Assembly: GCF_026151205.1 (NCBI RefSeq)
Contig: NC_087084.1
Coordinates: forward strand, 12,055,453-12,119,452
Reading direction: 5' to 3'
Length of the DNA stretch: 64,000 bases
From: Bolinopsis microptera
Lineage: Eukaryota; Ctenophora; Tentaculata; Lobata; Bolinopsidae
Numbering within the stretch: position 1 is the stretch's first letter; every line of letters begins with the position of its first letter. The notes beneath the pieces are model-generated. The model searched no databases and was not told where the DNA came from. It saw nothing but the letters and a program-made list of their open reading frames with translations. Of this stretch, positions 4,611-60,418 are shown piece by piece. The position numbers were made by a program, and so were the translations under genes.

Positions 4611-4709
4611 ATGTCGATGGGGAGAGATACTGGAGCTGCAGGCACCCCTGGAGATTATCGTACTATTCCGCATGAGTCTACGACTACTGCTTCATCCATC
4701 ACCGATCAG
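4611..4709 (+). CDS. candidate alternative first exon of TRPM gene (33 aa)
   Basis: An ATG opens a 33-codon stretch (MSMGRDTGAAGTPGDY...) rich in Thr, Ser and Gly that ends ...SITDQ at CAG|GTATGA, a good 5' splice site exactly on a codon boundary. A stop (TGA) lies five codons upstream in frame, so the exon must start here or at an acceptor in between. The phase matches the acceptor of the shared TRPM exon at 60280. No domain; it would be a short flexible N-terminus. It lies about 55 kb from that acceptor, so the intron would be very long. The intron opens with a 24-bp G-run. Coding character is clear by eye for such a short exon, but the link to TRPM is inference from phase and strand. Confidence 0.6.
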
Positions 4710-4729
4710 GTATGATTGAAAATTGTTCT

Positions 4730-4753
4730 GGGGGGGGGGGGGGGGGGGGGGGG
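4730..4753. repeat. G homopolymer, 24 bp
   Basis: Begins 20 bp after the 5' splice site of the first exon at 4611. On the transcript it would be a G-run next to a donor site, able to form a quadruplex. Confidence 0.9.
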
Positions 4754-4779
4754 TATAGTATTCTTCTACCAAAGAATAC

Positions 4780-5760
4780 TATTAGGTTGATCCTCCCTGT
4801 GACCACGAGCTTTCTCGTCTTACTTATAATTCAAAGAATTTATATGTTTGTAGTTGTACTTGTACTAGAAAACCCGTGGTCACAGGGAGGAAGCTAGTAT
4901 TTTTCTAATTCTTTGGCAGTCAGTTTTTATCGCATCCAAAAGTATTCATCCCCAGCGAAGATACAGCCGATTAAAATGTTGCTCGCACTGAACACAACGT
5001 AATACTAATTACCACAAAACCGATCAAAATGTCGCTCGCAAATCTTTGCACGTGCGTGTAACAACCCTCGTTACCATGGTTACTTTGCAACTTCTTATTT
5101 TTTACCTAGTTTGCACGTGGGCGGTCGTACAGCATATATACAAAAATAATTCTTTGAATTATAATAATGACTAGAAAGCCTGTGATCACAGGGAGGAAGG
5201 TAATAATATTCTTTGGTAGTCAGTTTTTATAGCATCAAAAAATATCCGTCACCATCGAGTATACAGCCCATTAAAATGTAGCTCGCACAGAACACAACGT
5301 AATTACCACAAAACCGATAAAAATGACGTTAAAACAATCATTAGTATTACAGGTGCATGTGCACGTTTCAACACCATTACCGCGTGGTTACTATGCAACT
5401 TCCTATTTCCCATCTGATTTGCACGTGGGAGGTCGTACAAAGATAATTCTTTGAATTATAAGTAAGATGTATGTACGACCGCCCACGTGCAAATAGACGA
5501 GAAATATGAAGTTAGGTAAAAAATCAAAAGGTTGCATAGCAACGGTGCTTAAATGAGCACGTGCACGTGCAATGACTGTTGGAACGGCATTTTGATCGGC
5601 TTTGTGGTTATTATATTACGTTGTGTTTTTAAACTTTAAAAAGTGTTTAACATTTAAATCGGCTGTATCTTCGGTTGGGATGGATTTTTTTATGCGATTA
5701 AAACTTTCTTTCAAAGAATACTACTAGCTTCATCCCTGTTACCAAAGGCTTTCTAGTACT
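4780..5760. mobile_element. nested MITE cluster with direct and inverted copies
   Basis: A unit of about 270 bp containing GTGATCACAGGGAGGAAG, TTAAAATGT(T/A)GCTCGCAC and TTTGCACGTGGG(C/A)GGTCGTAC occurs at about 4870-5140 and 5170-5450 in the same direction. It occurs again inverted at about 5465-5760. The outer ends (AAAGAATACTATTAG near 4785 and AAAGAATACTACTAG near 5715) frame the cluster. No coding capacity. Confidence 0.7.
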
Positions 5761-8700
5761 TATATCTTTATATAAATTGTAATATAATATTATTACAAAT
5801 TATTTAATCATATGCAATTTCTTCATTGTCTTGCAAGTATCATTTTGTAATACGTCTTCACTATAAATTAACGCAGTATTATATTTGTATTACATGATTC
5901 TTAAAAAGAAATATAGTAGCTAGACAAAATGTTTCGTCAGCTAAAAATTAAACAATGCAGCTATAAATCACTTTTTTTTGCTAACGTACGTGATCAACGT
6001 ACTTCTCAGCAGTTGCTCATGTAATTCAAAATTGTATGTGCTTAGAATTTAAAAAATCAATCGATACATTCATTATCACGCATGATTGTATGGGGCATGA
6101 TAGTATCATGCTCTATTATATCGGGTTCTATTCACCGATATGAGAGTAATTGACAACTCGCACTTCGCTAACTTTCTGATTACAGTTAAACTTATTCATC
6201 TGATAGTTATCAAACTTTATTCAAGCTTTCAAGGAGACAGTTTCGCCAACTCTGTTTTCTATATCAACTATAAGTATAAGAAGTAAATTAATAAGTATTA
6301 AATATATGTACCAACCTCTGATACATACAGGGTGGGCCATAATCGGGCACTCTAGGTTACTGAGAAATAAGCACAAACCTTTGCACACTGACTTATGGCC
6401 CACTCTGAGCAGATATCAGGGTTTCCTCTAATTCCTAGACAGTTTAGCTGAAAAGTGCAGTACCAGGCTGCAGTCAGGCTGCAGTCAGACGTGCCACACC
6501 CCACTTCTCATTATGTTATTACTATACAATTCCGTCAGCCTGCAAAATCACAAAACTGGGACTGACCTGGCATTTGGTGTGGGTTTCTTCACTTTCGTAC
6601 TGCAAAATTCGTAGCTGCAGATGCCTTACAACTTATGAAAATACAAAATTGAAACTCTTCGAACGTCTCTTATATCCTCCATTCTATTTCTACTAGTACT
6701 ATCAAAGTATCAATGGATTTAAGTGTAGGCAGTTTACCCTTCCCAAGGACCACACAATATCCCAGGCTCTGTGATAAAGCCAGCAGTGCTAAGGTAACGA
6801 GCCTTGCACTTCTAATGTTACTCCACTTATCATGCTACATCATACCCATATTGGCTGAGATATCTCATGTTGTGCCGGTATAGGCACGTACTGTCGTGAC
6901 GGAACATTATGTACTCTGCACATGCACATCTTGCTTTAAAAACTTGGCTGTCAGAAACGCGTACAATTATTGTTAATAACTGCTTCACATTTAGTAGTGA
7001 AGAACCCGAATTAGGACTATGTATTTTATGTAGTATTGGACAATTAGCTGGTCAACATCCTTACTATTTCTTAGTACACAGTGGTGGTCGGTTCTACTCC
7101 CGCTGTAAAACTTGACAACTTTTCTCTGATTTACAGCACCGTCCAAAGAGCGTTTTGTCCGTCTAGCCACCGTATATTCTCCGTCACCAAGCCATCACAC
7201 GTGACCTGAACTTAGTGTTCTTATTGGATGCCACAGTAGCACGTTCCTACCATCTGCCCTCTTATTGGGTGGATTTCAAGGTAGTCTGATGAGGGACGAG
7301 GGGATACCATTTGTTGTCTTGCTATAGTACTTGCTGGTCATTACATGATAATTCTCCTTTTTAAAGATTAACCAGTGTTGACGTTAGTGGAACGGGGTGA
7401 TAATAAAGTAAAAAATATTGCTTTATTACTATTAGTGCAATAAATCCACTCGATAATAAGCCTCATAAGTTGAGGCCTTTAATATCGCGGTCAATACCGT
7501 GGCAATTTGAGAAGCGGTGTTATAAGTTCATGTTGGCTTTTTGTTTGTCAACGATATATTTTAAGGTTCTTTTCACTTTTGAGTTGTTAGTCGGTGGAAC
7601 TGTAATGAGAGTAATAGTTTTTTTGTCTTTTGAAACTTGATTTAACTGAAATTATACAGTGACTAGATCAGTTATTCATAAAGTTTTGATGAAAACTGAA
7701 GACAATTGACGCTTCAACACGACTCAGCGAACAGCTTGGTTACAATTTATCAAACATACAATTGGAGCTAAATTTAATAACTGTGCTGTTATATTTCCAA
7801 GTAAAACGCTCATGTTTCACTGAAGATAAAGCTCGCTGAAACTTTTGCTGAAACATGACCAATTAAGGCTCTGTTTAACTATAACACCTGTAATCTAATC
7901 GATATCTTGTGAACTGTCGTCATATCAGACTGTTATTGCAAATGTAACATTCGCCAAATTATTTCAACGCCGAGGTTTATAAGTCATAAACTGTATAACG
8001 GTATTTAATGTTAAATGTTCAACCAGTCAACAGTTTTAAGCTTCAAGTTTAACGACTGTCTCTAGAATCTAGATTCTCAATATCTTGAAGTTATATTAAA
8101 TTCCTTATTAGTAGCATAATCTTAGCATAATCTATACTTTATACAAAAGCTTGTTGAATCGATTGATAAGACCTTAGACCATAATGTATTTCTAATGACT
8201 TGATAACTCTGTGTCCTGCGAATAAAAACTAATACAACTTCAGACCCTGGCCCTAATCTTGACCCAAAAACTCAACCAACTTTTGCCCAATCAGTCTGAT
8301 TCAGTCTTGTCTTGGATAACAGAACCCTAAAATTTCACAGCACCACATGTGATTGGCATGTGAGTGGGCACTAAATTGGAACAAACCAAGCTGGTACAAC
8401 ATCTGTTAGATCTTTAGATATATGATAAATAAACAATTGAGCTGATCACAATGTGGTTGTACAGTGTTATACTACAATTAACCATTTGATTCTAATATTG
8501 ATGTGACGGCCCCTCTTTTTAAGTTTTTAAGCACTACCGATCAGTTTCGCTGAACTGTTTTCTGACACGTTTAGTTTTTGATAATTTAAAACTTTTTGCT
8601 GGACTTGCAATGATGAAGCTCGAATCCAGGATTTCATATTTACCGAGTCACACTAACTTGGTAAAAACTAAAATGTAGTTCAGTTTTAAAATTATTTGAA

Positions 8701-10671
8701 AGAACTATACTGTCACGTGATTCATTAATCGATCTGAATGGCTAGTGATCACTGAGGACACTATTCAGTGTGCAATGACATATTGGTTTGAGTGAATTAA
8801 GAGTGGATTGTCTAATTTATTTGGGTAATCGATCGGCACGTACCAAAGTTTGATACATTGATACAAGGTTTCGGTTCATGGTTAAAGTACGATCAATTTT
8901 CTCACGAAGGCTATATATTATTCAATTAGTTTTTTTCGTTAAAGATGTGTAATTGGCTTGTTCTGAACCCGACTATTCTCCAACTACAACTATAGAGTTT
9001 TTTATAATCAAGGCGGTTAAGCCACTCGACGAGAAGTTAAAAGCGACTAATCAATGAGTATTAGTAAAGCTTAATTACTGAAATGATGTGGTCGCTCTCT
9101 GATTCCCTGTCAACTGTTCCTATAAAGCTGGACACTACAAGATGTCATCTTCATTCTCTTATTTTCTCCATTTTTCTGACATGTTTTCCTCTACTACAAT
9201 CTGTTCGATCAGTCAAGTTTTCCTTAACTTCAAGTTATCAGCCTTCCAAATTACCATCTTCCTGTCAAACTTAAACAAGATTATGATCACGCTGTAGGGC
9301 AGTTTCTATTAATTGTTATTGAAACTGGGTCTAGTTCCATAACAACCGCGCATTGTGTCCAGCCAAGTTTATACTTGCCTCGTTCTTTGTGTGGCCGTAT
9401 GTCTGGATACTTGTTGAAGATGATCAGACATCAGTACGCCCTTTGTTTGCGCATGTTATCCGCAGTTTAATTTGAGTGAATAATCATTGTATAGTTGAAC
9501 AAAAAGCTAAATTTGTTCAAATTTTCTGTCTTGTATTCGTGACCTGACGCTTAACCACTTCAAGAATGTGGTCAAAATTTGGATTCCTGTTGAATGCTCT
9601 TCGTATATATGTCTTACCACTAAACTGGCCGAATCCAATGCTTTATTCGTGTTTCCATCGAATGGTTAATTATTACTTCTTTTCGACGGAGTTGATGGCC
9701 TTGTCAATTTCGCACAAAAGATCTTAACAAAAGCCTTTCATATTTTTTGCAAGTTGGATACAAATTTCAGATTAATTTTAACATTAAGCTACAAAACAAT
9801 CATTTAATTACTTGTCGAGTCCCGTAAGCTTGCAAAGTCACTCAATGTGAGTAGTCGCATGTTAAAATGCGGGAAATGCTCGCATCAAATGTTAACTGTT
9901 GGTGGTAGAATGTGATTTTACTGACACATAAATGTGGGTAATAAAATTAAAGTGGTAAAAGTTTCTTTTGACCTACTCACTGTAAACCACTTTTACTGAC
10001 AAAATTGATTATTCTATAATGTTTTCTTCAGCTTTCATTTTTGATAATTCCCATTATTTTTATTTAAGGTCCGATCAGGTGATCTTTATCAGTTTTTGAA
10101 TGTGAAAAAAGAATAAGGATTCAAATTTCGATTGATCGCTCACTTATTCTAGATTCATTCTATCAAATCTCTTCCTAGTTAAGTTCCATGGCACGTTTGA
10201 CCCGAATGTTTGACGGGTTGGAAATCACCACACTAATAATATAAATTGTTTAATTGGTCGAATGCACTGTCTTAATAGTATAAAAATAATTAGAAATTCC
10301 TATAAATTTAAACAAATTATATCGATATTTGACACTTCTATTATCAATTGTTATGTTTATAATCTCCATATAAAAGCCTCCACTATGTACCATATTGTAG
10401 TATTATCAGTATAAGTAGTATTAGTGTTAAAAGTATGTAGCAAGACTTCGATACAAGCCGTCAATAGCCACTTTAACTGAACTACTGATAAAACCCAATA
10501 GTTTACATTCCTCTTTTCCTTTCGTTTCTGTTTTTTCGTCCTTTCCTTTTTGTTCTTCATATTTAAATCACGTACGTGATAACATATATCGTATTACGAA
10601 ATTATCGTAATTTCACATCTAACACGGGTATATTCTCGAAGGTGAACTGCGATAGTTGATAATGTTATGTT
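5761..10671. other. long non-coding stretch
   Basis: About 4.9 kb of AT-rich DNA without convincing exons on either strand. It contains one small MITE at 6328-6407. Short open frames here lack good splice sites and coding character. Confidence 0.5.
6328..6407. mobile_element. 80-bp MITE with CAGGGTGGGCCATAA ends
   Basis: It begins CAGGGTGGGCCATAA and ends TTATGGCCCACTCTG, an imperfect terminal inverted repeat. Related CAGGGTG-type ends occur singly near 21986 and 23873. Confidence 0.55.
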
Positions 10672-10731
10672 AACAAAGAACAACAAAGAACAAAGAACAA
10701 CAAAGAACAACAAAGAACAACAAAGACAAGG
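10672..10731. repeat. AACAAAGAAC tandem repeat
   Basis: About six imperfect copies of a 9-10-bp unit (AACAAAGAAC), about 105-165 bp upstream of the first exon at 10837, probably in its promoter or 5' UTR. Confidence 0.85.
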
Positions 10732-10836
10732 AAGATTACCCCGACCCTTGTGATTGTGTTCCTGCTTTGTCAATTGCTAGAAAATGAAGGACATCTGCTG
10801 AGTAATTAGCTAATTAGGTGTAATTATCTAATTAGG

Positions 10837-10929
10837 ATGTACAACAATCACTTTGTGTTTGAGCCCCGGGAAGTCTACAATGCTAACAAGATCCAAACTA
10901 CGATTGCTCCTAAGTGGAGGTACGACCAG
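10837..10929 (+). CDS. candidate alternative first exon of TRPM gene (31 aa)
   Basis: An ATG opens MYNNHFVFEPREVYNANK..., ending ...KWRYDQ at CAG|GTCAGT, a good donor in phase 0. Amino-acid use (aromatics, Asn, a charged end) and the rise in GC over the flanks look coding. The next stop upstream in frame is a TAG ten codons before the ATG, and the A/T-rich stretch between lacks a phase-0 acceptor, which supports translation starting here. No known domain. It lies in the same orientation and phase as the other first exons and the shared exon at 60280. Confidence 0.65.
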
Positions 10930-11199
10930 GTCAGTCCATGTTTATTGTTTAATGTTTAATCTTTCTTCGCTCTTACGAGTGGGTCGATCATATATTTTGA
11001 TGAATGATGATAAACTAATTATGATAAACTAACTACGCAACACTTCTAATCTATTAAATTTATTGAGCTATGTAAGGTATTGTAACGTCCTGTCTATGAC
11101 AAAGGCATATTTCCGAAACGTCGACAACTAATTTGTTTTGAATCACTGAGTGGACTAGACTTTCACTTCGTCACCAACTATCAAAAAAAACTTAATCCT

Positions 11200-13170: not shown

Positions 13171-13370
13171 GCATGACTAGTAGCTTAATAATTATACCTT
13201 GGTTGTGATAATTGCACCCTTAGACTTGAATCGGCAATTAAACTACTGCACTCACATATGCATAATGCTGGATCAGCAGATATAATTTGTAATATCATAT
13301 AGTCATAATTCGTTACCTATATCATAGTCTGTTCACATAATCTATTCACCTAATGTTATTGTTTCTCCTA

Positions 13371-16442: not shown

Positions 16443-16469
16443 TATACTGCAGTGTAACATTTACATTAT

Positions 16470-16672: not shown

Positions 16673-16737
16673 ATTTAATTAGTAAATACGCAAAAAACAC
16701 TTAAATTTTATTAATAAAATGCAATCATCTGCAACCC

Positions 16738-16905: not shown

Positions 16906-16965
16906 CAACTACTTTTCCCACGTGTTAGTTGGCTTGTTTTAAATATCCCAGGTGCTTGTTTCTGA

Positions 16966-17799: not shown

Positions 17800-20700
17800 A
17801 TTGCTTATATTATATCACTATAAATATGAGATGCTTCATTGCTGGGATATCACTATAAATATGAGATGCTATACATTGCTGAGATTACTGAGATATCACT
17901 ATAAATACCACCATGAGAAGCTACATTGCTGAGATTGCTGAGATATCACTATAAATACCACCATGAGAAACTACATTGCTGAGATTGCTGAGATATCACC
18001 ATAAATACCACCATGAGAAGCTACATTGCTGAGATTGCTGAGGTATCACTATAAATACCACCATGAGAAGCTACATTGCTGAGATTGCTGAGATATCACC
18101 TTAAATACCACCATGAGAAGCTACATTGCTGAGATTGCTGAGATATCACTATAAATACCACCATGAGAAGCTACATTGCTGAGATTGCTGAGATATCACC
18201 TTAAATACCACCATGAGAAGCTACATTGCTGAGATTGCTGAGATATCACTATAAATACCACCATGAGAAGCTACATTGCTGAGATTGCTGAGATATCACT
18301 ATAAATACCACCATGAGAAGCTACATTGCTGAGATTGCTGAGATATCACCTTAAATACCACCATGAGAAGCTACATTGCTGAGATTGCTGAGATATCACT
18401 ATAAATACCACCATGAGAAGCTACATTGCTGAGATTGCTGAGGTATCACCATAAATACCACCATGAGAAGCTACATTGCTGAGATTGCTGAGATATCACT
18501 ATAAATACCACCATGAGAAGCTACATTGCTGAGATTGCTGAGGTATAATCATAAATACCACCATGAGAAACTACATAATTGCTGAGATTGCTGAGATATC
18601 ACTATAAATAACACCATGAGAAGCTACATTGCTGAGATTTCTGAGATATCACCATAAATATCACCATGAGAAGCTACATTGCTGAGATTGCTGAGGTATC
18701 ACCATAAATACCACCATGAGAAGCTACATTGCTGAGATTGCTGAGATATCACTATAAATACCACCATGAGAAGCTACATTGCTGAGATTGCTGAGATATC
18801 ACTATAAATACCACCATGAGAAGCTACATTGCTGAGATTGCTGAGATATCACCATAAATACCACCATGAGAAGCTACATTGCTGAGATTGCTGAGATATC
18901 ACTATAAATACCACCATGAGAAACTACATTGCTGAGATTGCTGAGATATCACTATAAATACCACCATGAGAAGCTACATTGCTGAGATTGCTGAGGTATC
19001 ACCATAAATACCACCATGAGAAGCTACATTGCTGAGATTGCTGAGATATCACTATAAATACCACCATGAGAAGCTACACTGCTGAGATTGCTGAGATATC
19101 ACTATAAATACCACCATGAGAAGCTACATTGCTGAGATTGCTGAGATATCACCATAAATACCACCATGAGAAGCTACATTGCTGAGATTGCTGAGACATC
19201 ACTATAAATACCACCATGAGAAGCTACATTGCTGAGATTGCTGAGACATCACTATAAATACCACCATGAGAAGCTACATTGCTGAGATTGCTGAGACATC
19301 ACTATAAATACCACCATGAGAAGCTACATTGCTGAGATTGCTGAGATATCACCATAAATACCACCATGAGAAGCTACATTGCTGAGATTGCTGAGACATC
19401 ACTATAAATACCACCATGAGAAGCTACATTGCTGAGATTGCTGAGATATCACTATAAATAGTAAATACCACCATGAGAAGCTACATTGCTGAGATTGCTG
19501 AGATATCACTATAAATACCACCATGAGAAACTACATTGCTGAGATTGCTGAGATATCACTATAAATACCACCATGAGAAACTACATTGCTGAGATTGCTG
19601 AGATATCACTATAAATACCACCATGAGAAACTACATTGCTGAGATTGCTGAGATATCACCATAAATACCACCATGAGAAGCTACATTGCTGAGATTGCTG
19701 AGACATCACTATAAATACCACCATGAGAAGCTACATTGCTGAGATTGCTGAGATATCACTATAAATAGTAAATACCACCATGAGAAGCTACATTGCTGAG
19801 ATTGCTGAGATATCACTATAAATACCACCATGAGAAACTACATTGCTGAGATTGCTGAGATATCACCATAAATACCTACATGAGAAGCTACATTGCTGAG
19901 ATTGCTGAGACATCACTATAAATACCACCATGAGAAGCTACATTGCTGAGATTGCTGAGATATCACTATAAATACCACCATGAGATGCTACATTACTGAG
20001 ATTGCTGAGATATCACTATAAATACCACCATGAGAAACTACATTGCTGAGATTGCTGAGATATCACCATAAATACCACCATGAGAAGCTACATTGCTGAG
20101 ATTGCTGAGACATCACTATAAATACCACCATGAGAAGCTACATTGCTGAGATTGCTGAGACATCACTATAAATACCACCATGAGAAGCTACATTGCTGAG
20201 ATTGCTGAGATATCACCATAAATACCACCATGAGAAGCTACATTGCTGAGATTGCTGAGACATCACTATAAATACCACCATGAGAAGCTACATTGCTGAG
20301 ATTGCTGAGATATCACTATAAATAGTAAATACCACCATGAGAAGCTACATTGCTGAGATTGCTGAGATATCACTATAAATACCACCATGAGAAGCTACAT
20401 TGCTGAGATTGCTGAGATATCACTATAAATACCACCATGAGAAGCTACATTGCTGAGATTGCTGAGATATCACCATAAATACCACCATGAGAAGCTACAT
20501 TGCTGAGATTGCTGAGATATCACCATAAATACCACCATGAGAAACTACATTGCTGAGATTGCTGAGACATCACCATAAATACCACCATGAGAAGCTACAT
20601 TGCTGAGATTGCTGAGATATCACTATAAATACCACCATGAGAAGCTACATTGCTGAGATTGCTGAGATATCACCATAAATACCACCATGAGAAGCTACAT

Positions 20701-21387
20701 TGCTGAGATTGCTGAGATATCACCATAAATACCACCATGAGAAGCTACATTGCTGAGATTGCTGAGATATCACCTTAAATACCACCATGAGAAGCTACAT
20801 TGCTGAGATTGCTGAGGTATCATCATAAATACCACCATGAGAAACTACATTGCTGAGATTGCTGAGATACCACTATAAATACCACCATGAGAAGCTACAT
20901 TGCTGAGATTGCTGAGATACCACTATAAATACCACCATGAGATGCTACATTACTGAGATTGCTGAGATATTACTATAAATACCACCATGAGAAGCTACAT
21001 TGCTGAGATTGCTGAGATATCACTATAAATACCACCATGAGAAGCTACATTGCTGAGATTGCTGAGATATCACCATAAATACCACCATGAGAAGCTACAT
21101 TGCTGAGATTGCTGAGATATCACCATAAATACCACCATGAGAAGCTACATTGCTGAGATTGCTGAGATATCACTATAAATACCACCATGAGAAGCTACAT
21201 TGCTGAGATTGCTGAGATACCACTATAAATACCACCATGAGAAGCTACATTGCTGAGATTGCTGAGATACCACTATAAATACCACCATGAGAAGCTACAT
21301 TGCTGAGATTGCTGAGATATCACTATAAATACCACCATGAGAAGCTACATTGCTGAGATTGCTGAGATATCACTATAAATACCACTA
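17800..21387. repeat. 50-bp minisatellite, about 70 copies, TATA-bearing
   Basis: A 50-bp unit is repeated head to tail. Each unit contains CACTATAAATACCACCATGAG, then AGCTACATTGCTGAGATTG, then CTGAGATATC. The first units (17800-17900) are degenerate. Common variants are GATATC/GACATC/GATACC and CTATAAAT/CCATAAAT/CCTTAAAT. A 9-bp insertion (extra AGTAAATAC) recurs near 19461, 19766 and 20321. Each unit therefore has a TATA-box-like sequence a few bases before an ATG in strong start context, but reading from that ATG stops after about 13 codons. The last unit merges into the first exon at 21392. Confidence 0.95.
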
Positions 21388-21391
21388 GAAT

Positions 21392-21637
21392 ATGAGCAGG
21401 ATGTTCCGGGTGGACACAAGTCACGTGACAGTTGACCACGCCCTAGACCTCAAGTTTGCGGAGTGCCAGGAGTACAACGGGGCAGGAGGTGAGGACACTA
21501 TCAGTCCCCTCACAACCCATATCTCACCTGCTGATAACGTCGTTCCGGATAAGAGCCAGACCTTCCGGTTCAGGACTTTCAACTTTCTGCACAGGAGTTC
21601 AGATGCTGATACACAGAAGATTGTCGAGAACCTTCCA
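21392..21637 (+). CDS. candidate alternative first exon of TRPM gene (82 aa)
   Basis: An ATG opens an 82-codon stretch (MSRMFRVDTSHVTVDH...) ending ...DADTQKIVENLP at CCA|GTGAGT, a strong donor in phase 0. Local GC content and balanced amino-acid use stand out from the flanks. A TAG lies two codons upstream in frame. The start sits only 5 bp after the last recognisable minisatellite unit, whose TATAAATA lies about 15 bp before the ATG, so the array may supply the promoter or 5' UTR. No known domain. The donor is followed at once by an 11-bp tandem repeat. The phase fits the shared TRPM acceptor at 60280. Confidence 0.75.
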
Positions 21638-25610: not shown

Positions 25611-26243
25611 ATGCAGCCCCACAATGGACCATCTCACCACTTCACTGCTGACCGTTTAGTTAGAGCTTCGCCGTGCGATGTTGTTATCCAGAGTACCACG
25701 CCGCGCGGTGGTATGCTGAGCGCCCTTGCTCCTACCAACACCACCTTCATGGAATACGAGACATCTGATCATCCTGGTCCTGCTGTAGAGGAGGGTACGT
25801 TTGAGAGGGTTCACTTCAGTGATGGGGACAATTATAATGACTTTACACAGTTCAATGGTGCGGCTGAGGAGTATACCTCTTCTATATTAACGAACCGGAA
25901 TGTTGGTGGAATTCAACACTTGTACGATCATCAACCGGAAATATATCGGGTTGGTGCCACCCATATTTCTAGAAACGACTCTAATCAGAATGCAATATCC
26001 GCCCACCGCCAATTCAGTGAATTCAGGGATATTCAACAAATAGGAGAACCCAACAGTGAACTGCCATCTGATGACAAGTCCTCGGGTAATCAGACACAGA
26101 AAAACGTTAACGACTGCAACATGAACATCAACCCTGCTTTCATCAACTGGAAGAGAGTGGGGCTCCTCGATCGAGGGATGAGCATGTTGAACCTACACAT
26201 AATGCAATTCACTACGCAGACCTTCAGCACCCTCGCCAAGGAT
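25611..26243 (+). CDS. alternative first exon of TRPM gene, long N-terminus (211 aa)
   Basis: An ATG opens a 211-codon reading frame (MQPHNGPSHHFTADRL...) ending ...TFSTLAKD at GAT|GTAAGT, a strong donor in phase 0. A stop lies upstream in frame, and no phase-0 acceptor separates it from the ATG, so this is a true first coding exon. The protein is polar and acidic (many Asn, Asp, Ser, His), probably disordered for the first ~165 residues, then shows a hydrophobic, helix-like end (INWKRVGLLDRGMSMLNLHI). No known domain or signal peptide. Length and composition make coding nearly certain. The assignment to TRPM rests on strand, phase and the lack of any other downstream gene in the window. Confidence 0.8.
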
Positions 26244-28097: not shown

Positions 28098-28688
28098 ATG
28101 ATGGACACACAGTCACGAACTGCTGTAAGGATTTTTGTTCAGCAAGTGGACAGTACTGTTAATGAATCCGAACGTGGTAACACTAGTTGTCTTCCTATTA
28201 AAGAAGAAGCAGACCTCGTTAGTGTTGTTGAAGATGTAAACTCCATTTTGGATGATAAAGAAGTCAACGCCAATCATGAATCCGTTCCTACCCCTACAAG
28301 TCCTGATCGTGGCCAGAGACGAAACAACAATCTGCCTGATACTTTCAATTCAAAATGTGCGGTTGATAATGATCTGCGGAGAGAATTGATGAGGGAAGTA
28401 ACTAGAAAGTTTCTCAGTAGAACACAGAACAACAGAGGCTTACTTCCTGGCTATGCAGGCCGTCAAACTCAACCTGTTTCGAAGCTTGGATCGTCACGTG
28501 ACCATTCTATCGACCTCGCGAGACGACGTATCTCTCACAGGCGGCAAGTGTCTAGTGATACCATTCTATCAGGTGTATCTATCAACCGCTTCTCAGCATT
28601 GGCTCAGCAGACTGAAATGAGCTTGCGAGGTAAATTGCATTCTGTGAGGATGGCGATGAGGAAGGAGAATGTTATACAAACTTATGAG
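28098..28688 (+). CDS. alternative first exon of TRPM gene, long N-terminus (197 aa)
   Basis: ATG-ATG opens MMDTQSRTAVRIFVQQVD..., 197 codons, ending ...MRKENVIQTYE at GAG|GTTTGT in phase 0. The first ~90 residues are acidic and Asn/Ser/Pro-rich. The second half is strongly basic, with kinase-type motifs RRIS and RRQVS around residues 140-155, and a helical, basic tail (LRGKLHSVRMAMRKEN). No known domain. A TAG in frame about eight codons upstream of the ATG is also a possible phase-0 acceptor, so use as an internal exon cannot be excluded. The ATG near the 5' edge nevertheless favours a first exon. The intron start carries degenerate copies of the donor. Confidence 0.8.
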
Positions 28689-31510: not shown

Positions 31511-31522
31511 AGGAAGCCCAAA
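31511..31522 (+). promoter_or_regulatory. possible leader or acceptor edge before exon 31523
   Basis: TCCCCCTAG directly before 31511 is a pyrimidine-rich acceptor-like site in phase 0 to the following frame, four codons before the ATG. It may be chance, since any upstream in-frame TAG looks like this, or it may allow internal use of the exon. Confidence 0.25.
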
Positions 31523-32086
31523 ATGATTCCGCGTAAATCTTCTATGCCTATATACATCCAGAAGGAACGTCCATCATCTCTGGCGGTCGTATTCGAAGGA
31601 TCGGTAAATGAGACACCTGCAGACTCCAGTAAAAGCTCAGTTCAAATCAGTATCAACTCCAGTGAAACTCCAGTAACTGCAAGTGTTCACTCCACTGTAA
31701 CTCCAGTAACTGCAAGTGTTCACTCCACTGAAAGCTTTGAATTGATGAATAAAAGGAAGCACTTTTTGAGGACCCAGTCCAAAGATTCAGCTGATGAAAT
31801 CATGAAGCAGCTACAAGTTATCAGGACATTCAAAAGAGCTGCTGCTCGGTCACCGTTCGACCGTTCAGCCTCAAGAAGCATGCCATCACGGCGGATATCT
31901 GTGCATGATACTACAGTATATGGTTCTAGTAGAGCTAGAGCATCTTTTCCAGATGACATGGGGTCCCGTCTTCAAAGCTTTGCTACGGATTATAATCGTT
32001 TTTTAGTATCCTTGAATAATATATCCGAAAAGCTCATCAACGGCAAAACCTGTGAAGTCACATTGACTGAAGAAGAAGAAAAATCG
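31523..32086 (+). CDS. alternative first exon of TRPM gene, long N-terminus (188 aa)
   Basis: An ATG opens MIPRKSSMPIYIQKERPSS..., 188 codons, ending ...VTLTEEEEKS at TCG|GTAAGA, a good donor in phase 0. Residues about 36-72 form a Ser/Thr-rich repeat (SVHST.TPVTA twice). Residues ~100-140 are basic with RSASRSMPSRRIS, a strong PKA-type site, and the end is acidic. The first residues contain RKSSMP, an R-x-x-S-x-P pattern of the 14-3-3-binding type. No known domain. A stop lies four codons upstream in frame. Coding status is secure; linkage to TRPM is inferred from phase and strand. Confidence 0.8.
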
Positions 32087-39473: not shown

Positions 39474-40121
39474 ATGAGGAGAGGCTCGTGTCCGGATGTA
39501 ATCCATCTCCCACCCACTATATCAACTGTACTACGAAATAGATCTCGGAGCAACGAAGATCACGAAATTGACGACCCAAATTCTGAAATGAACGGAAGAG
39601 ACTTCCCAGCTGTGAGCAAACCACTTTTCGGAGCAACCACCCTCTCCACCAACAACTCCCTCTCTGATCCAGCTCTCTCTGGTCACCTCAGTGTCCCAGA
39701 CAGAGACTCGGTCACCAGGACATTCTCAAACCCTGAACAGAGCCACAATGGTCGACACACACGACCCAAACACAAGGTGTCTCTCAGTAAACAGTTCTGC
39801 AACTTCAGACCATGTGACGACACCATCCTGGAGGAGAGTGTGCTCCAGAATGAGGCTACCCAAGAAGATCTGCAGCTGGGTATGAGAGTCAGACGACATG
39901 CTACCTCGACCCCTAACATTGGGAGGCAGTGTGAAGCTGAGAATTTCTACGTAGACGCCCCAACATTCCACAGTCTGAGGAAAGGATCAGAGCCTGCCAG
40001 GCCCCCTGATCATGGTGTTGTGAGTCACATGAAGCGGTATTCTATTCAGATCAACCACACGCTGGAGAACTTGGGCCACAGATTGCTTGGAGAGCGGAGC
40101 AGCAAGGACGATACTGGCAAA
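39474..40121 (+). CDS. alternative first exon of TRPM gene, longest N-terminus (216 aa)
   Basis: An ATG opens MRRGSCPDVIHLPPTIST..., 216 codons, ending ...GERSSKDDTGK at AAA|GTGAGT, a strong donor in phase 0. The region is clearly more GC-rich than its flanks. The sequence is Ser/Thr/Asn-rich with kinase-type motifs at the very start (RRGS, within R-x-x-S-x-P), at about residue 145 (VRRHATSTP) and near 190 (MKRYS). The last ~25 residues look helical (IQINHTLENLGHRLLGE). No known domain. A stop lies a few codons upstream, with a possible phase-0 AG four codons before the ATG. Coding is secure; membership of the TRPM transcript is inferred. Confidence 0.82.
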
Positions 40122-46293: not shown

Positions 46294-46425
46294 ATGTACG
46301 AAGAAATGTCTCGGAACACACTGTTTCCGGAGTATTACCAGCCGTACCGACGACATAACGGGGGCGGTGTTATAGTCGCCCAGAATAAGGGCTTCAAGAA
46401 ACATAGACGACGCGGCATCGTCATG
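46294..46425 (+). CDS. candidate alternative first exon of TRPM gene (44 aa)
   Basis: An ATG opens MYEEMSRNTLFPEYYQPYRR, followed by a Gly-rich stretch and a highly basic end (FKKHRRRGIVM), terminating at ATG|GTGAGA, a good donor in phase 0. GC content and aromatic/Pro/Arg use look coding. A TAG four codons upstream closes the frame. The KKHRRR cluster could bind acidic lipids or act as a localisation signal at the channel N-terminus. No known domain. Confidence 0.7.
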
Positions 46426-50753: not shown

Positions 50754-50945
50754 ATGGTACGGCGCCTAATAAGCATGGATTTAAAAGAAGGGGTTCACGG
50801 ACCCTCTGCATATATTTCTGCGTGGCCTCTAACTATAATTATATTCAAACAAACCCTAGTGGGAGACGTCAATAAGTTTATAAATTATCCGAGGAATTTT
50901 GGCAGAGACAAAGGCGTGCAATCCTATATTTCATACCTTATTCAG
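50754..50945 (+). CDS. possible first exon (64 aa)
   Basis: ATG opens MVRRLISMDLKEGVHGPSAY..., 64 codons, ending ...QSYISYLIQ at CAG|GTTTAT in phase 0. The donor is moderate but of the same GTTT type as those at 28689 and 54313. Composition is plausible for protein (GDVNKFINYPRNFGRDKG). No domain. A chance open frame cannot be excluded. Confidence 0.4.
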
Positions 50946-53060: not shown

Positions 53061-53144
53061 ATGTTCCGTGGTCGTGAGAGGATACCCTCAGTCTGGCAGT
53101 CCAGTCCTGCTCTTCAATACTCCGTCACCAGAACACGGTTCCAG
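53061..53144 (+). CDS. candidate alternative first exon of TRPM gene (28 aa)
   Basis: An ATG opens MFRGRERIPSVWQSSPALQY and ends ...SVTRTRFQ at CAG|GTACGA, a fair donor in phase 0. The exon is distinctly GC-rich for the region and basic in composition. A TGA lies three codons upstream in frame with no credible acceptor between, favouring translation from this ATG. The donor is followed by a 24-bp tandem repeat that re-creates AGGTAC several times. Confidence 0.65.
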
Positions 53145-53199
53145 GTACGATACTGTAACAACTACAATCACGTGACATTTAAGGAAGTAACAACTGCAT

Positions 53200-53310
53200 T
53201 CTGCAAGGTACACTACTCTAACAACTACAAGGTACACTAATCTAACAACTACAAGGTACGCTACCCTTCACTAGCTTACAATGATTGCTCCATACCAGGT
53301 ACACTACCAT
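53200..53310. repeat. 24-bp tandem repeat carrying copies of the donor
   Basis: Copies of AAGGTACACTA...CTAACAACTAC place AGGTA(C) splice-like sites with GT at 53208, 53232, 53256 and 53299, echoing the true donor at 53145 (AGGTACGATACTGTAACAAC). Confidence 0.75.
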
Positions 53311-53585
53311 CAACCATGACTACTAGTTTAAAAGAATTGTTATGATAACTACAAACAAAACTGTTATTTTGTCTGCATGTCAACCCCTCGTAAAATTGCC
53401 CTGAACCACAATTATAGACTATAGTTATACGAACTTTTCAATTTCGTGGAATTTTTAGTGGCAGTGCGAATGACAAGCACTGCTGACAAACGCGACTCAA
53501 GTTACTTATAACTAAGTTACTGACCTACTCTACGCTGTACACATATATTGAATAATACTAATAATAAGTATCTGGAAAAGGAGGA

Positions 53586-53739
53586 GAACATCAGGCAAGT
53601 TTCCACAAATGATTTTTGACAATAAGCAATAATAAGCGCTTTTTTAATGCTAAAAAAGCGCTTATTTTGAAAACCGATTATTTTACGCCAATAGACGGTC
53701 CCGATTAAAAAATCATTTGTGGAAACTTGCCGAACATCA
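53586..53739. mobile_element. 138-bp hAT-type MITE with 8-bp target duplication
   Basis: The element 53594-53731 has ends GGCAAGTTTCCACAAATGAT and its exact complement, with an inner palindrome around AAGCGCTT. It is flanked on both sides by GAACATCA (53586-53593 and 53732-53739). Recent insertion judged by the perfect duplication. Confidence 0.9.
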
Positions 53740-54264
53740 TGTCATACAATAATATTGTTATATATAATAACCTACAGTTATACACAGATAATAACTTATT
53801 TATTAAATAAGCAGATTCTAAAGTATAATAAGTAGCTGGCAAAGGAGGAGATCTTGTAGTGGAAATTTGTTGGCACTGGACATCGCGGCTCTCACAAGGT
53901 GAAAGTTGGGAGATTAGTTGGTCGGTGATAACTTATGCGCAATTAAACGATTTAACAATATACCTTGCTGCAGAAGCCGCACAAAAGTTCTATCCGTTTA
54001 ACTTTTCTAAGTGTCGAAAGTAAAGTTTACCAGCTCCCAGGATTTTGATAAGCTGAATTGATTGTATGCTGGCATTGGTCGACGGATATGACTTCGCTTT
54101 TTAAACTTTGCAAAAATGTTGAATAGGTATCCCACTATTATAGACTGTTTCAGACTAGTATTCGAAAAGATCGCACCTTAGTTAAGTTAATAAACTTTAT
54201 TTAACTGATTAGTAACCTCCGTCCTTATGTTGAGTCTGCTATTTTCATTTTGTTGTTTAGTTTC

Positions 54265-54312
54265 ATGAGACGTAGGGCTGGTGTGACTGATGATCCTTTG
54301 TCCGCCGAAAAG
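54265..54312 (+). CDS. candidate alternative first exon of TRPM gene (16 aa)
   Basis: ATG opens MRRRAGVTDDPLSAEK and ends at AAG|GTTTGT in phase 0, sharing GTTTGTAAAAC with the donor of the exon at 28098. Short, but composition (RRR, DD, P) and the donor are convincing together. Downstream lie ~30-bp repeats that copy the donor. Confidence 0.55.
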
Positions 54313-54450
54313 GTTTGTAAAACACAAGGAAACATTTTCGCGGTTTTTTTGAAGCTCAAGAAAATATGTTCATGAGTTTGTGGAACGTAAGGATTTTTTA
54401 CCAGGTTTGTGAAACATGATGAAATGTTAAATAGGTTTGTGCAATACACG
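54313..54450. repeat. ~30-bp degenerate repeats copying the donor of exon 54265
   Basis: AGGTTTGT(A/G)AAACA-like sequences recur with GT at 54313, 54376, 54405 and 54435, about 29-30 bp apart in the last three. Confidence 0.65.
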
Positions 54451-56784
54451 GCAAATAAAATGTTGTAACGGTTTCGAGCAGAGTTCTAATTAAAACTGAT
54501 GGATATTGTAACTTTCTCAGCTTTGAAAATCCTCCATAACATATTCTCTTTGCACTTTCCTACAATTTCAAGACTCAACTTTGTGAAAAGTTGTATTTCT
54601 CCATTATGGAAAACCTGTCTAGTTCTGCAGGTACAGTGGTGTTTAAGTGTTTAAACTAAACAAAAGAGCACGAGCACTGATATATCACTTTATGCCGACA
54701 AACGTCTATAAATAGTATAACGACTAACGTCTAATTACTAACGTCTAACTGCTAATGTCTGCAAGGGCAGTATTGTTTTTGTACTATATTTTATCTTATT
54801 ATGTCCTTATCATGTCGACAGTGGCTTCTAGCTAGACTGTGAGAATAAGTAATGGTTTGACCTGATTATCCGTGGGAAATTAGTGGACGTGACGTGAAGC
54901 TGAATATGTCTTGTAGCTTTTATTGCTATCAATATCATATTTACGTTTTACCTTGAAAAATTACTCCAAGTATGTGTGAGCTAAGGCGTTAAAATTTTCC
55001 ACTGACATAAAATAAAGGTTCTACTGTATTTATAATTTTAAAGGTTACTAGGTTAATGTAAAATATTGAAGTGAAACCTGCACTTTCGTCGTTAAGGATA
55101 AGCTGTGTTTTTAAACACCCCAACTTCATAAGTGTATTTTAGTTATAGCGGCCTCTAAATTGGCTGTGAATACTTCAGCCGTTAACTGAATGTTGCAACG
55201 TGTGATGGAAAACCGAAAAACGTATACCTTTTAAGCTTTTAAAAGTTACTAGCTGCTTTGCTACTATTTTCCACCATTATTTTTCGCAAATAATGATTAC
55301 AATTACATTATATAAATGACTGTAGCTACAAAAATTGCCCTTTTCAATCACGAGATAAATTAATTAAAAACCTCATCGCTTTATTATTTTAAAATTTTAA
55401 GCTCATTATTACTTTATAAGGCTTTCAGTGGAAAACAACTGCAGTGCTGCTGTATAAGGCATTCAGACAACATTTAATAATCAATAACATTTAACTAATC
55501 AATATTTTCTGTGGAATAATTAGTAAGTTAAAGCAAAACGTGTAAAACGAGTCGCGAGCTGAGTTGCATCCAAGATTTAATGCCCTTTGTAATAATATTT
55601 TGAATAAATTGGTACATTGACCAACATAATTAAACAGTTTAATAAATTAACCTACCATTTACGTAATTGTACTTGTAGCTTACCTGATATCAGATATGAA
55701 GTACATAATTCACCTGAATAGCAGCGCCAAGTAAGGATTACCACTTTTTAACTAATTACTAGTCACTTTAAAAAATACTTAATAACTGAAATTTAAACGA
55801 GCTTGTCTGGACCGTAATCAGCATCAAGTATTAACAAAAATCTTGTTCGGACCTTCATTCACTTGACAAGCAACCGTATGCCACAGCGTACGCTATGCAG
55901 TATGCAAGTGACTTAGTTAAAAACAAACTACAATATTCTCACAATAGATGAAAAAGCACGAATCATTCGATTGAGCGCTCTGCAGGTGAGGGCTCTATTT
56001 TTTCTGAGGGCTGCCATTTTCTCTGCCATATTATTGTCTTAGTGTCTGTTACTAGGGTTTTCTCCTCTGCAATTTATGAGGGATGAGACAGAGCCGAGGT
56101 GATTATAACGCTCTCAAAGGCCAAGATTCCACAAGTCTCTGGAGAGGTCTTCTCACCTCAGCTTTCAAAAAGGTCTGAATTGTTCTCACTGTGAGATTTT
56201 AATGTAATACGCTGAGAATATATTGCTTTGCGTTGTTGTTGCACAGCTTATGAATATTAAACTTGACCATTTGTGCATCTTTATGGAGGAAATTTGTGGC
56301 GTTCAATTTGGTTGAATCACTCATGCAGCCCACCATTTCTTAACTTCACATTTTTCTCTCCGGCTAACTTATAGATATCTCAATCATCAATCCGGCAAAT
56401 CCTAAATCAACTAATAGTAATGATTGCCTAATAACAATTCGTTCCCGACGTCACACTACATTCCCACAATTCCTCAGCCCTTTCCTCCCAGTCCAATAAA
56501 CCTTCCCTCCTCACATACCACAGAAATTATTTAACCTTCATGTAACGCATTTCCTGGACCAATTACCCGCCGTCTAATCGGGCAATCAATCGATCCGGAG
56601 ACCACCCTCACTTCATGGTGTGTCCAATTAGCCACTCGTGGTGTTCAAAATAGAATCATATATTACACGATTCCCTGTTTGAGTCGGAGTTTGCCTGGTT
56701 TGATGAAATTCAGGACCTGTATTTGCGAGGTTTATATCTTACGTGCGCTGATTGAGCTTAATCCTGATATTGTGCTGTTGCTGA
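54451..56784. other. long non-coding stretch
   Basis: About 2.3 kb, AT-rich, no exon or repeat recognised. A GC-richer patch at 56440-56650 lies just upstream of the exon at 56785 and may contain its promoter. Confidence 0.4.
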
Positions 56785-56859
56785 ATGATGTCGTATGATG
56801 GCAAGAAGGGTTTGTTTCACGATCCTATAGCTTCAACATTGGCCAAATTAGCTATGCAG
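56785..56859 (+). CDS. candidate alternative first exon of TRPM gene (25 aa)
   Basis: ATG-ATG opens MMSYDGKKGLFHDPIASTLA and ends KLAMQ at CAG|GTAAAG, a good donor in phase 0. A TGA stop stands immediately before the first ATG in the same frame, so this exon cannot be read as an internal exon and must start translation here. The helix-like end (STLAKLAMQ) resembles the end of the exon at 25611 (FSTLAKD), which may be chance. No domain. Confidence 0.7.
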
Positions 56860-57680
56860 GTAAAGGTTTGTTAAAGTCTTTGATTTTATAAGTGGTTTAG
56901 TTAGAAACAAAAACTAAATCCTTATCTACGTTATGCATCAAACGCTGCTCCGGAATTGAATGAGGACACAAGCACTCAAATAATTAGACATCAAAGGAAA
57001 TTTTGTCCAAGTCAATTAACTGTTATTAATATTATCTTATATTAACCTCGTAGTTAAAACCTAAATATTAAATTCTTCCAATCATCATAGATGTAGTGCA
57101 TTCAGTCCATAGGTGCAAATTTTAAATTTTGTTGATTTCATCTGACCGCCAACTTCTTGCCACCATTATTTCATCGAAAAAATACCGGGATCGTAAATTC
57201 TTTTGTCTTGTATCAGTTCGATTATCGCATGGTTTGCTTTTGAAAAATTTAGTCATAAAAGCATGCTAAACTCCAAAACTTCTTTCTCCTTAACAACAAC
57301 TAATCGAAGGAGGAAAAAATTTAAAGTATGTGATTTTATAAATTTCTCCGCTGTAAAAATAACTTGGCGGTGGTAAGACAAGAAAATCTCGAAAGAACCT
57401 GTAAAATGGTAAGTTCTAATCTGTTGGTGGTCTTTACAGATACTAATTTACCAATCATTACGTACTTTGGTCTGCGGTCGGCCGGGCTAACTGCAATTAA
57501 CTTTAACCATTCCATCGGCTATTGCTCGGAATCAATGCTAATCCAAATCCCGTACTAATAAACCGATACTACAATTAAAACTATGCCGATTGATTTTGCT
57601 TTGTAGAGGCAAATCATAGACCATATGTTTCAACCGTGCAGACCACATCTCAATTCGTTGTAACATTCAAACGTACAATA
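56860..57680. other. non-coding intron-like stretch
   Basis: No clear exon; an ATG|GTAAGT at 57406 would give a one-residue exon and is not called. Confidence 0.4.
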
Positions 57681-57761
57681 ATGTACAAGTTTCTTGAAGA
57701 TGTCTCGGGAAAAGTTTTTTGCTCTGTTTTAATGCCTAGTAACCTGGTAAATTCTCTTTTT
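57681..57761 (+). CDS. possible first exon (22 or 27 aa)
   Basis: ATG opens MYKFLEDVSGKVFCSVLMPS and continues NL to CTG|GTAAAT (exon end 57746) or five codons further to TTT|GTAAGT (57761); both donors are phase 0. Coding character is fair. An alternative is a chance open frame. Confidence 0.4.
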
Positions 57762-58448
57762 GTAAGTTCCACATCTAGATATCATCATCTTGATTACCAG
57801 TACGCGTTAATTTGCGAACAGCTACTTTTACTGTTGGCTATATATCACAGTATAGATATGATACTAGTTTCTGCGGCTAGTGATCACATATTGTAGCTAA
57901 TAAAACCTATTGTAGTAGTTAATTGGTAAAATTGCTGAATTGTGGGAGCATGACTGATCAGTGAGCTTGACGAGGCAAAATATCACAATTGAGAAATATG
58001 CTTACTATAATCACTAGTCAGTAAGGCATGGAATTTTCAAAAGTATTTCTCGACGGAATATGGTATTTATATTAACGAAACTAGACTTGCCGCCAATTTT
58101 GGAACACTAAAAATAGCTGATATTGGGACAGGCCCTTTTCAGAGGTTTCACAATTACCAAATTGCAGTGTTCGAACAGTCTCTATACGGTCTACGACCAT
58201 CAAGAAAAAATTGGATAATTGTGAAACCATTGAAATGGGCATTGCCCAATATGAGCTATAGTTATGAGTGTTGGTGACAAGTCTAATTTCGTTGATACAA
58301 GCCAAAAGTACCATATGCCAGCGGATCCTAAAAACCAACTCTTCCTCCCGTGATATATACGCTTTTTCTATAATAAAATGATCTTTATCTATACAAATTA
58401 TTACAAAAGCCGCTTTAATTGGTGACAGCACATGGTCAAAGAACTACA
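57762..58448. other. non-coding; minus-strand open frame not called
   Basis: A 116-codon minus-strand frame at 58081-58431 has no ATG at its start, no recognised domain and no splice support. Confidence 0.35.
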
Positions 58449-58590
58449 ATAAAAGCCTGATTTACCGCGGAGTTTGGGGAAAAGAAAAAACCGCGGTTAA
58501 TCGGGGTTTGCGGTTAATCGGGGTTCACATCATACCTGTTAAGCACAATTTGGGAAAAGGATATTGTCGCGGTAAATCAAGGTTTTACTC
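58449..58590. mobile_element. MITE related to the one at 16272
   Basis: Contains CCTGATTTACCGCGG at the left and CGCGGTAAATCAAGGTTTTACT at the right, with internal GCGGTTAATCGGGGTT repeats, matching the family at 16272-16442 in diverged form. Confidence 0.55.
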
Positions 58591-58784
58591 TGTACAAAAC
58601 TAATAAGTATGACACCTGTAAATGACTAATCATTACTTAATAAGCTTATTGTCATACAAATTAACCATCACAAAGCGAAGTGGCCAATGAATAAGATCCA
58701 TATCTTTTAGTAAACAGATTCATGATACGTTGGCTTCTGTATTACTAAAATGAAAGCCTGATTGCGTGTGTACTTTTACCTACA

Positions 58785-58880
58785 ATGTTTAAAAGTGATG
58801 ATCTTGTTTCCAAAATGTACGAGAGACTCGTCGCTACTAGAAGGGCCAGTGATTTCGTTCTTTCGTTACTCCGTCTAACT
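58785..58880 (+). CDS. candidate alternative first exon of TRPM gene (32 aa)
   Basis: An ATG opens MFKSDDLVSKMYERLVATRR and ends ...ASDFVLSLLRLT at ACT|GTAAGT, a strong donor in phase 0. The peptide is amphipathic and helix-like, typical of a coding exon. It is the closest strong first exon to the shared acceptor at 60280, with a 1.4-kb intron, so it may represent the proximal promoter. Confidence 0.7.
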
Positions 58881-59027
58881 GTAAGTTTGTTAGAATCTTC
58901 TAGATGATATTTCATCTCAAAAATTCGCAGTGAGAGAACGAGGTCAGTATTATCACAGATACTATTACTAGCAGTGTAGTATCTGTACAGTAAAACATTT
59001 TTATAAGTTTATCGTTCCTCTCGAGTT

Positions 59028-59365
59028 TCTAGACCGGGTACCTCGATATACCTGGTCTCTTTCTTTCCCCCAAACTTTTGGTCAAGTATAAGATTGTGTT
59101 TTTATATTTTGCGAAAGTAATATGTGATTTTTCAGTGTATTTGATGGTAATTTGAGTACACATCGAGCTGTATATTCCATCGCTATACGACAGACACCTG
59201 CATAACTATAAGGCCCCTTATAAATGGGGTATACCGTATAATATGACGATTGACAGGTTATTTGAGAGTTTGAGAGGCTTCAGAATTGGAATCATTTGAA
59301 CCTCTCCATACCGGGATTTCTATACCGTGCGCTTTTCGTTTCCCCAGAGGAGCCCGGTATGAAGT
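59028..59365. mobile_element. dispersed repeat, copy B (TACCTCGATATACC family)
   Basis: Starts ACCGGGTACCTCGATATACC and ends ...CAGAGGAGCCCGGTATGAAG, with CCATACCGGGATTTC inside; same family as 25050-25372. Confidence 0.6.
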
Positions 59366-60045
59366 AGTTTGACTGTATAATTTCACTAAAAATGAGTTTC
59401 GCCGAGGACCTCAAGTTTAAATCTCCATCTCGTACTACAGTATATTAGTACGTGCCGTCTGGCTAGGACAAAAGACTGCATTTCGTACTGCAGTACGTGC
59501 CGTCTAACTAGAACGACGACCGCATCAAATACTGAGAAAGGTCCGTCTAGCTAGAACAAAGACTCAGTCTCTTAATCGGTTGGAGTCTGAAAAGAACAAT
59601 ATTCTGCATATAATAAAAGTCTAGTGGTGTTTAATAAAGTTACAGTAAATTACATTTTATTGACGAACCCTTCTCTATCGTGATGTAATACTTCAAACAT
59701 AGGGTGCACCCCCAAACTTAATAATATTGAGATCTTTTGAGAGCTCGAGCCTCGAAAGTAAAAAATACTTATCGCACGAACTTGTGTCGGGTGGGGAGCG
59801 GCGCAAATTTTTGTTCAACCCTCATGTCAAAGTTAACAAATCGCCTACTAGATGCTTTATAATTAGGATTTCTTCCTTTTCCGCCTATCTAAACTTTTGG
59901 TGAATTATGTGATAGGTGGATTTACATCTGTATATATTACTCTTTATTGTCATTTTTGAATGAAGTTTGTGTCCAATGTTATACATCGCGTCAATAATAT
60001 GTAATCAAAATAATTGAAATGAGAGATATTCAATCTAGATAATTC

Positions 60046-60204
60046 AGAATCACTCTATATACCGTGCCTCTCTATTATACTGAGTACCTCGATATACCGA
60101 GCTTCTTCTTTCACCCAAACTCTAAATAAATTAGCATGTTATCGGCCGATTTGTACTGCAAGAAATGTGATTTGTCATAGCTCCCCTGGGAGGCCTGGTA
60201 TATA
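60046..60204. mobile_element. dispersed repeat, copy C, abutting the shared exon region
   Basis: Shorter copy of the same family (CTATATACCGTGCC, GAGTACCTCGATATACCGAG, AAGAAATGTGATTTGTCAT). It ends GGGAGGCCTGGTATATA directly before an ATG at 60205. Confidence 0.55.
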
Positions 60205-60279
60205 ATGTTTTACAATAAAAGCGAATTAGAAATCCCATTCTTAAACAGTTATTCAAACATAACCAAGGCATTATTTCAG
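60205..60279 (+). CDS. possible alternative in-frame start joined to the shared exon (25 aa)
   Basis: ATG at 60205 opens MFYNKSELEIPFLNSYSN... and reads without a stop through the acceptor CAG into the shared exon at 60280. If transcription starts in or near the TATATAATG end of the adjacent repeat, this would give an unspliced minimal N-terminus. The alternative, favoured here, is that it is intron sequence ending in the acceptor TTATTTCAG. Confidence 0.35.
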
Positions 60280-60418
60280 AGGACATTCGACGAATGGGTA
60301 GTGAAGAACATCCAAGTTAGGGAGTGCTACAAGTTCGTTAAGGAGAAAGATGATGTGGATAATGACCCTATCTGTCATTGCAAGAACAAGCTCTCGAAAC
60401 ACCCTAAGCTTAGTTCCG
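60280..60418 (+). CDS. TRPM: TRPM channel, first shared exon
   Basis: After acceptor TTATTTCAG the exon reads in phase 0 RTFDEWVVKNIQVRECYKFV, then KEKDDVDNDPICHCKNKLSKHP. This is the signature start of the TRPM homology region: W-x-x-x-x-I-x-x-R/K-E-C-x-x-F, followed by a C-x-C cluster and H. TRPM proteins are tetrameric cation channels with a large cytoplasmic N-terminus. The donor is taken as TCCG|GTTCGG (phase 1); a second candidate six bases later (60424, G|GTTTGC) gives the same phase. All upstream first exons end in phase 0 and can join here without changing frame. Confidence 0.93.

Follow-up and report, generated by a model that had tools for sequence, protein, structure and literature searches.

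The best-known clusters of variable first exons are those of the vertebrate UGT1A and protocadherin loci, where the exons are copies of one another. Among the TRPM channels of vertebrates, TRPM6 has alternative 5' exons (a, b and c) and TRPM3 has N-terminal variants, with about three short exons. The variable exons of UGT1 are described as similar to each other, almost identical in length, and accompanied by a conserved upstream motif (PMC1885805), and TRPM3 is described as existing in multiple splice variants (PMC11339754). Among the literature matches listed, whose titles and abstract openings were searched, nothing concerned alternative first exons of a ctenophore TRPM gene or an N-terminal array of this kind for TRPM2. 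The term "alternative promoter" is absent from the main text of a paper on chromatin loops in Mnemiopsis (PMC12221973).

We analysed a window of 64,000 nucleotides from the ctenophore Bolinopsis microptera (contig C13, positions 12055453-12119452) within an assembly of 264.65 Mb in 232 contigs, which served for all genome searches. The features of the locus are collected in Table 1. The locus probably holds one gene, for a TRPM2-like channel, in which five or more alternative first coding exons are each predicted to be spliced into a shared exon at 60280. An array of alternative first exons feeding one TRPM gene had been proposed in the original prediction, and this is the best reading where five of the exons are concerned and plausible for another two, but the twelve exons first proposed were an overcount. 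For the number of alternative N-terminal tails, the best reading of the sequence is at least five and perhaps about ten.

In layout, the locus resembles UGT1A and the clustered protocadherins, with a same-strand array of large variable first exons, a constant region behind it and one joining phase, all read here from sequence evidence. The organisation originally likened to those systems is recovered at this level only. The exons in the window are not recognisable copies of one another, range from 82 to 216 codons in length, and have neither a shared upstream motif nor a known domain. The likeness to TRPM6 and TRPM3 lies in a TRPM channel with a swappable first coding exon, in frame, before the conserved N-terminal region. 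The roughly three short exons of those genes contrast with at least five candidates here, four of which have 188-216 codons, in a ctenophore TRPM2-like gene with a NUDT9-H region. The constant part of the window gene is a TRPM2-type channel, like the TRPM2 proteins with NUDT9-H in structures 6co7 and 6mix, which we take to be those of Nematostella and human.

Table 1. Features of the candidate first-exon array and of the TRPM gene. Positions are window coordinates except for the upstream neighbour; candidate exons are graded as described in the text, and a slash marks the exon end in donor sequences.
Feature	Position	Strand	Codons	Evidence and remarks
Citrate synthase-like gene	~15 to 11.7 kb before window	+		upstream neighbour of the array and TRPM locus
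Moderately supported short first exon	4611..4709	+	33	phase-0 donor CAG/GTATGA; combined codon and donor score 9.0; codon z 2.5
Moderately supported short first exon	10837..10929	+	31	phase-0 donor CAG/GTCAGT after 10929; combined codon and donor score 10.5; codon z 3.0
Strong candidate first coding exon	21392..21637	+	82	codon z 5.9; phase-0 donor after 21637; stronger phase-1 donor after 21488
Strong candidate first coding exon	25611..26243	+	211	open frame 236 codons; codon z 5.9; phase-0 donor GAT/GTAAGT
Candidate first coding exon, strong by length	28098..28688	+	197	open frame 210 codons; codon z 2.0; weak phase-0 donor GAG/GTTTGT, score 1.1
Candidate first coding exon, strong by length	31523..32086	+	188	open frame 197 codons; codon z 2.5; phase-0 donor TCG/GTAAGA
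Strong candidate first coding exon	39474..40121	+	216	open frame 227 codons; codon z 5.8; phase-0 donor AAA/GTGAGT
Weak candidate	46294..46425	+	44	codon z 1.6; near genomic background
Weak candidate	53061..53144	+	28	codon z 1.4; near genomic background
Weak candidate	54265..54312	+	16	donor score 1.3; codon z 2.4; near genomic background
Weak candidate	56785..56859	+	25	codon z 1.8; near genomic background
Weak candidate	58785..58880	+	32	codon z 1.5; near genomic background
First shared (constant) TRPM exon	60280..60418	+		phase-0 acceptor, phase-1 end; tblastn with C11 paralog; 3' end by eye
TRPM constant exon 2	62084..62181	+		sequence, boundaries by eye; homologous to an exon of the C13 paralog
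TRPM constant exon 3	62376..62487	+		sequence, boundaries by eye; homology
TRPM constant exon 4, SLOG-domain region	62650..62783	+		sequence, boundaries by eye; homology
TRPM constant exon 5	63300..63437	+		homology to TRPM paralogs, boundaries by eye; LSDAT_euk E 0.07, below cut-off
TRPM constant exon 6	63754..63847	+		sequence, tblastn; boundaries by eye

Exon 60280 is preceded by ...TTATTTCAG in phase 0, and its first residue is where tblastn homology to the TRPM paralog on contig C11 sets in, which agrees with its original description as the first shared TRPM exon with a phase-0 acceptor. From this point on, the exons align in order to the C11 paralog (tblastn), and the gene continues past the end of the window to about 80.5 kb on the window scale. 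Among recognised exons, only those of TRPM lie on the + strand from 60280 onwards, as expected from the original observation that no other gene is visible downstream. The SLOG region is represented by exons 62376-63437, which align to the frame of the C11 paralog that carries LSDAT_euk at 6.6e-46. Several exons align to the Ion-transport pore region of the same paralog, and Ion_trans itself scores 23.1 bits on one exon of the window gene, just under the 25-bit cut-off. The C-terminal NUDT9-H region is found in frame 75652-76119 (window scale), which matches TRPM2 structures at 2.4e-14 and the ADP-ribose pyrophosphatase 1q33 at 8.5e-11, and which has no Pfam match at E 0.1. On these homologies, we identify the window gene as a TRPM2-like channel with a NUDT9-H-type C-terminus and a conserved part that starts at exon 60280. 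An in-frame ATG at 60205-60279 opens 25 codons that run straight into this exon, a possible extra proximal start without splicing.

All twelve + strand ATGs of the original prediction are present, and from each an open frame extends to a phase-0 GT. These frames, the phase-0 donors available to them and the common gene downstream can be read directly from the DNA. That the stretches all end in phase 0, as was also proposed, is borne out in that each has such a donor available, but 21392, 25611 and 28098 hold higher-scoring donors in phase 1. Phase-1 donors thereby outscore phase-0 donors in three of the five strong exons (7.0 versus 3.4 in 21392, 3.9 versus 3.7 in 25611, and 3.8 versus 1.1 in 28098). 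Use of the phase-0 donors by the candidate exons is likely from sequence, and shorter or differently joined forms of 21392 and 28098 are possible because the phase-1 donors there score higher. These two phase-1 donors lie at window positions 21489 and 28630.

The long frames exceed chance expectation. Four frames of at least 190 codons are present in the 60-kb upstream region, all on the + strand, where the Markov mean is 0.05 (200 replicates; largest chance frame 216 codons). This count covers both strands with two tandem arrays masked, and the long frames were identified whether or not they had a start codon. It upholds the original view that the four stretches of 188-216 codons are not accidental. 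A codon model was trained on seven glutamate-receptor and TRPM frames from the same genome and used to rank all frames in 103.8 kb. Exons 39474 and 25611 come out on top, and 21392 is fifth, after two exons of the upstream + strand neighbour, a gene that we take to be citrate synthase-like. Exons 28098 and 31523 are outside the 60 best frames listed and have absolute codon scores near zero. For comparison with the codon z values in Table 1, which are relative to local DNA, three TRPM exons give 3.7, 2.7 and 2.2. The genome contains 32 glutamate-receptor matches (PF10613), several as single frames of ~900 codons and some clustered on contigs C3, C6, C8 and C12. For one glutamate-receptor frame, the closest solved structure is the ligand-binding domain of ML032222a (4yki, E 9.1e-121), whose ML prefix denotes a Mnemiopsis leidyi gene.

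Phase and strand were compared among candidates defined as ATG-to-donor frames of at least 16 codons with a donor of at least 3 bits. There are 15 such candidates in phase 0 on the + strand and 4 on the - strand, against a Markov mean of 4.75 and a maximum of 10 (60 replicates). The corresponding numbers for phases 1 and 2 are 6 and 5 on the + strand and 1 and 3 on the - strand. At a combined codon and donor score of at least 8, phase 0 has five candidates on the + strand (39474, 25611, 21392, 10837 and 4611) and none on the - strand, with a Markov null of 0.17 per strand that falls to 0.03 at a score of at least 10; these thresholds were fixed ahead of the scan, at a time when the codon scores of all twelve candidates were already known. 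A laxer count, with thresholds picked after the candidates had been seen, gives 12 in phase 0 on the + strand. The null yields 2.0 by this count, and each of the five remaining combinations of strand and phase in the window yields 2 or 3. As controls, we took twelve strand-phase sets from two 60-kb stretches chosen arbitrarily in the same genome, which were left unmasked and include genes. Per set, the number of candidates ranges from 4 to 10, that of high scorers from 0 to 3 and that of lax scorers from 4 to 11. All three counts for the window (15, 5 and 12) are higher than in any of the twelve sets, the lax count (12) only just. On the basis of this control background and the phase-1 donors, we grade the coding stretches as five strong, two moderate and five weak. 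The dozen or more N-termini originally proposed are not sustained, since five of the seven short candidates hardly stand out from ordinary DNA of this genome.

A Pfam scan of six of the twelve candidate exons gave nothing above cut-off, and no similarity among the five strong exons is significant after correction for 10 pairs, in line with the original statement that the stretches share no domain. The best of the 10 pairs is 28098 with 39474 (local score 54, p 0.009 uncorrected), a weak similarity that is possibly a trace of exon duplication; the other nine pairs have p >= 0.139. No exact 7-mer is common to three of the five 300-bp regions upstream of the strong exons. In the genome, 25611, 28098 and 39474 each match only themselves, as does 21392 (searched as DNA only). 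Exon 31523, which contains a 33-bp (11-codon) tandem repeat, gives one full match, to itself, plus six weak, partial matches whose E values are no better than 0.56. A transposon origin of the long exons was considered and rejected, as a second copy was not found and there is no domain. The tails of the five strong exons consist of 41-55% disorder-favouring residues and 17-26% Ser+Thr, with residue classes that, like the splice-site weights used throughout, were untrained. An RRxS motif in the tails reached a total P of 0.043 over the five exons and is not claimed.

A 50-bp tandem array of ~70 copies occupies window positions 17872-21385 and abuts exon 21392; its units contain TATAAATACC and an ATG. 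When a 201-bp piece of this array was searched against the genome, all 21 matches listed fell within that single array. By eye, the ATGAG of exon 21392 lines up with the ATGAG of the repeat unit. An identical 20-codon frame is present in inverted orientation at 1724-1783 (-) and 3483-3542 (+), and because the same frame recurs inverted, these look like repeat copies and not candidate exons. Rfam and tRNA searches found none.

The alternative that survives best, although we think it unlikely, is serial or cassette splicing, in which an extended N-terminal region would begin with one or two genuine first exons and include several of the long exons as internal exons in phase 0. The phase-0 donors would keep such a transcript in frame, and a fair phase-0 acceptor is present for 31523 (at 31511), with weak in-frame acceptors in 25611 (two) and 28098. 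In the interval between the upstream stop and a point 120 nt beyond the ATG, one or two phase-0 AGs scoring at least -1 are present in each of these three exons, but also in 43% of random stretches. There are none in 21392 and 39474; lacking a usable phase-0 acceptor near the 5' end, these two look like true first coding exons. The position of the ATG also speaks against internal exons, as it lies at most 16 codons from the upstream stop in every strong exon. The chance of this in all four long frames, if they were internal, is about 0.016, or 0.006 with 21392 added. The best reading of these sequences is that at least two of the strong exons are independent first coding exons, with serial splicing possible for the other three.

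Less likely again is that TRPM is not the gene to which some or all of the long exons belong; they might, for instance, be part of nested genes that run parallel within the long first intron of TRPM, and be joined to unrecognised exons. In the ctenophore H. californensis, 2357 nested intronic genes are reported, many of them parallel to their host (PMC8527503), and the stronger phase-1 donors of three strong exons also favour this reading. Against this, no further cluster of exons turns up between TRPM and the citrate synthase-like gene, either in the codon scan or in the lists of + strand frames, and the excess of phase-0 candidates matches the phase of the TRPM acceptor.

Since ctenophores use spliced leaders widely (PMC8527503), the N-termini might also be set by the choice of trans-splice acceptors on one long pre-mRNA instead of by promoters, which we regard as quite improbable. 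The same source reports a spliced leader on 56% of Iso-Seq reads from H. californensis and the leader motif 491 times in the M. leidyi genome. In the window, the count of the motif is at chance level, and its single exact site is unlike the published leader. The best acceptor scores in the 200 nt before the ATG are -2.8 for 21392, 0.8 for 25611, -1.4 for 28098, 6.2 for 31523 and -0.1 for 39474; random places have a median of 2.1. At this distance, 31523 alone does better than random, and an acceptor farther upstream is possible. Least probable is an array that is mostly chance, in which a single real first exon lies among open frames that run into a GT by accident: counts in ordinary DNA of the genome are comparable for the short exons, but the expectation of 0.05 for the four long ones and a codon z of at least 5.8 in each of 21392, 25611 and 39474 count against it.

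The paralogs of the window gene offer a comparison within the same genome. A second TRPM gene on contig C13 lies ~2 Mb from the window gene, on the - strand; its identity to the window gene is 59% over exon 63300 and 69% over exon 62650. In this paralog, the sequence that corresponds to exon 60280 (AFEQW...) starts four codons past a phase-0 acceptor, and one strong first-exon candidate lies 24.0 kb upstream (74 codons, phase-0 donor AAG/GTAATT, codon z 5.1 over the first 73 codons). Because of this phase-0 junction and upstream candidate, both genes are compatible with a far-off first exon that is joined in phase 0. The 40.8 kb upstream of this paralog, the single one scanned, contain no array comparable to that of the window, and the lax count on the strand of the gene is 3 in phase 0, 3 in phase 1 and 1 in phase 2. 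The other TRPM genes of the genome are one on C11 and two on C3. The C11 paralog has the TRPM2-like entry 6co7 as its best solved-structure relative; it is nearly intron-free, with 1386 codons in a single open frame, and the window gene is multi-exon. Two TRPM paralogs have tails without an evident intron ahead of the conserved part, of ~50 residues in the C11 paralog and ~210 residues in another, both counted from Met codons picked by eye.

We favour one TRPM2-like gene with alternative first exons, and infer that these exons are transcribed, spliced into exon 60280, selected by promoter choice and functional. Each would contribute a start codon and 82-216 residues of N-terminal tail with no recognised domain. 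The phase-0 donor of each exon would be joined to the phase-0 acceptor of exon 60280 across an intron of about 20 to 39 kb. The simplest reading is that the cell would choose the tail through the transcription start site, by means of alternative promoters. With the rest of the channel unchanged, the tails would probably affect how it is trafficked or regulated, or which partners it has.

A broader reading can be put forward only tentatively, and we are more inclined to doubt than to accept it. It holds that about ten unrelated, separately promoted tails are available to a ctenophore TRPM2-like channel, that the array arose from recruited new coding exons rather than by tandem duplication, and that one pore may serve many cell types with differing targeting or gating. 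The array bears on how single genes serve different ctenophore cell types.
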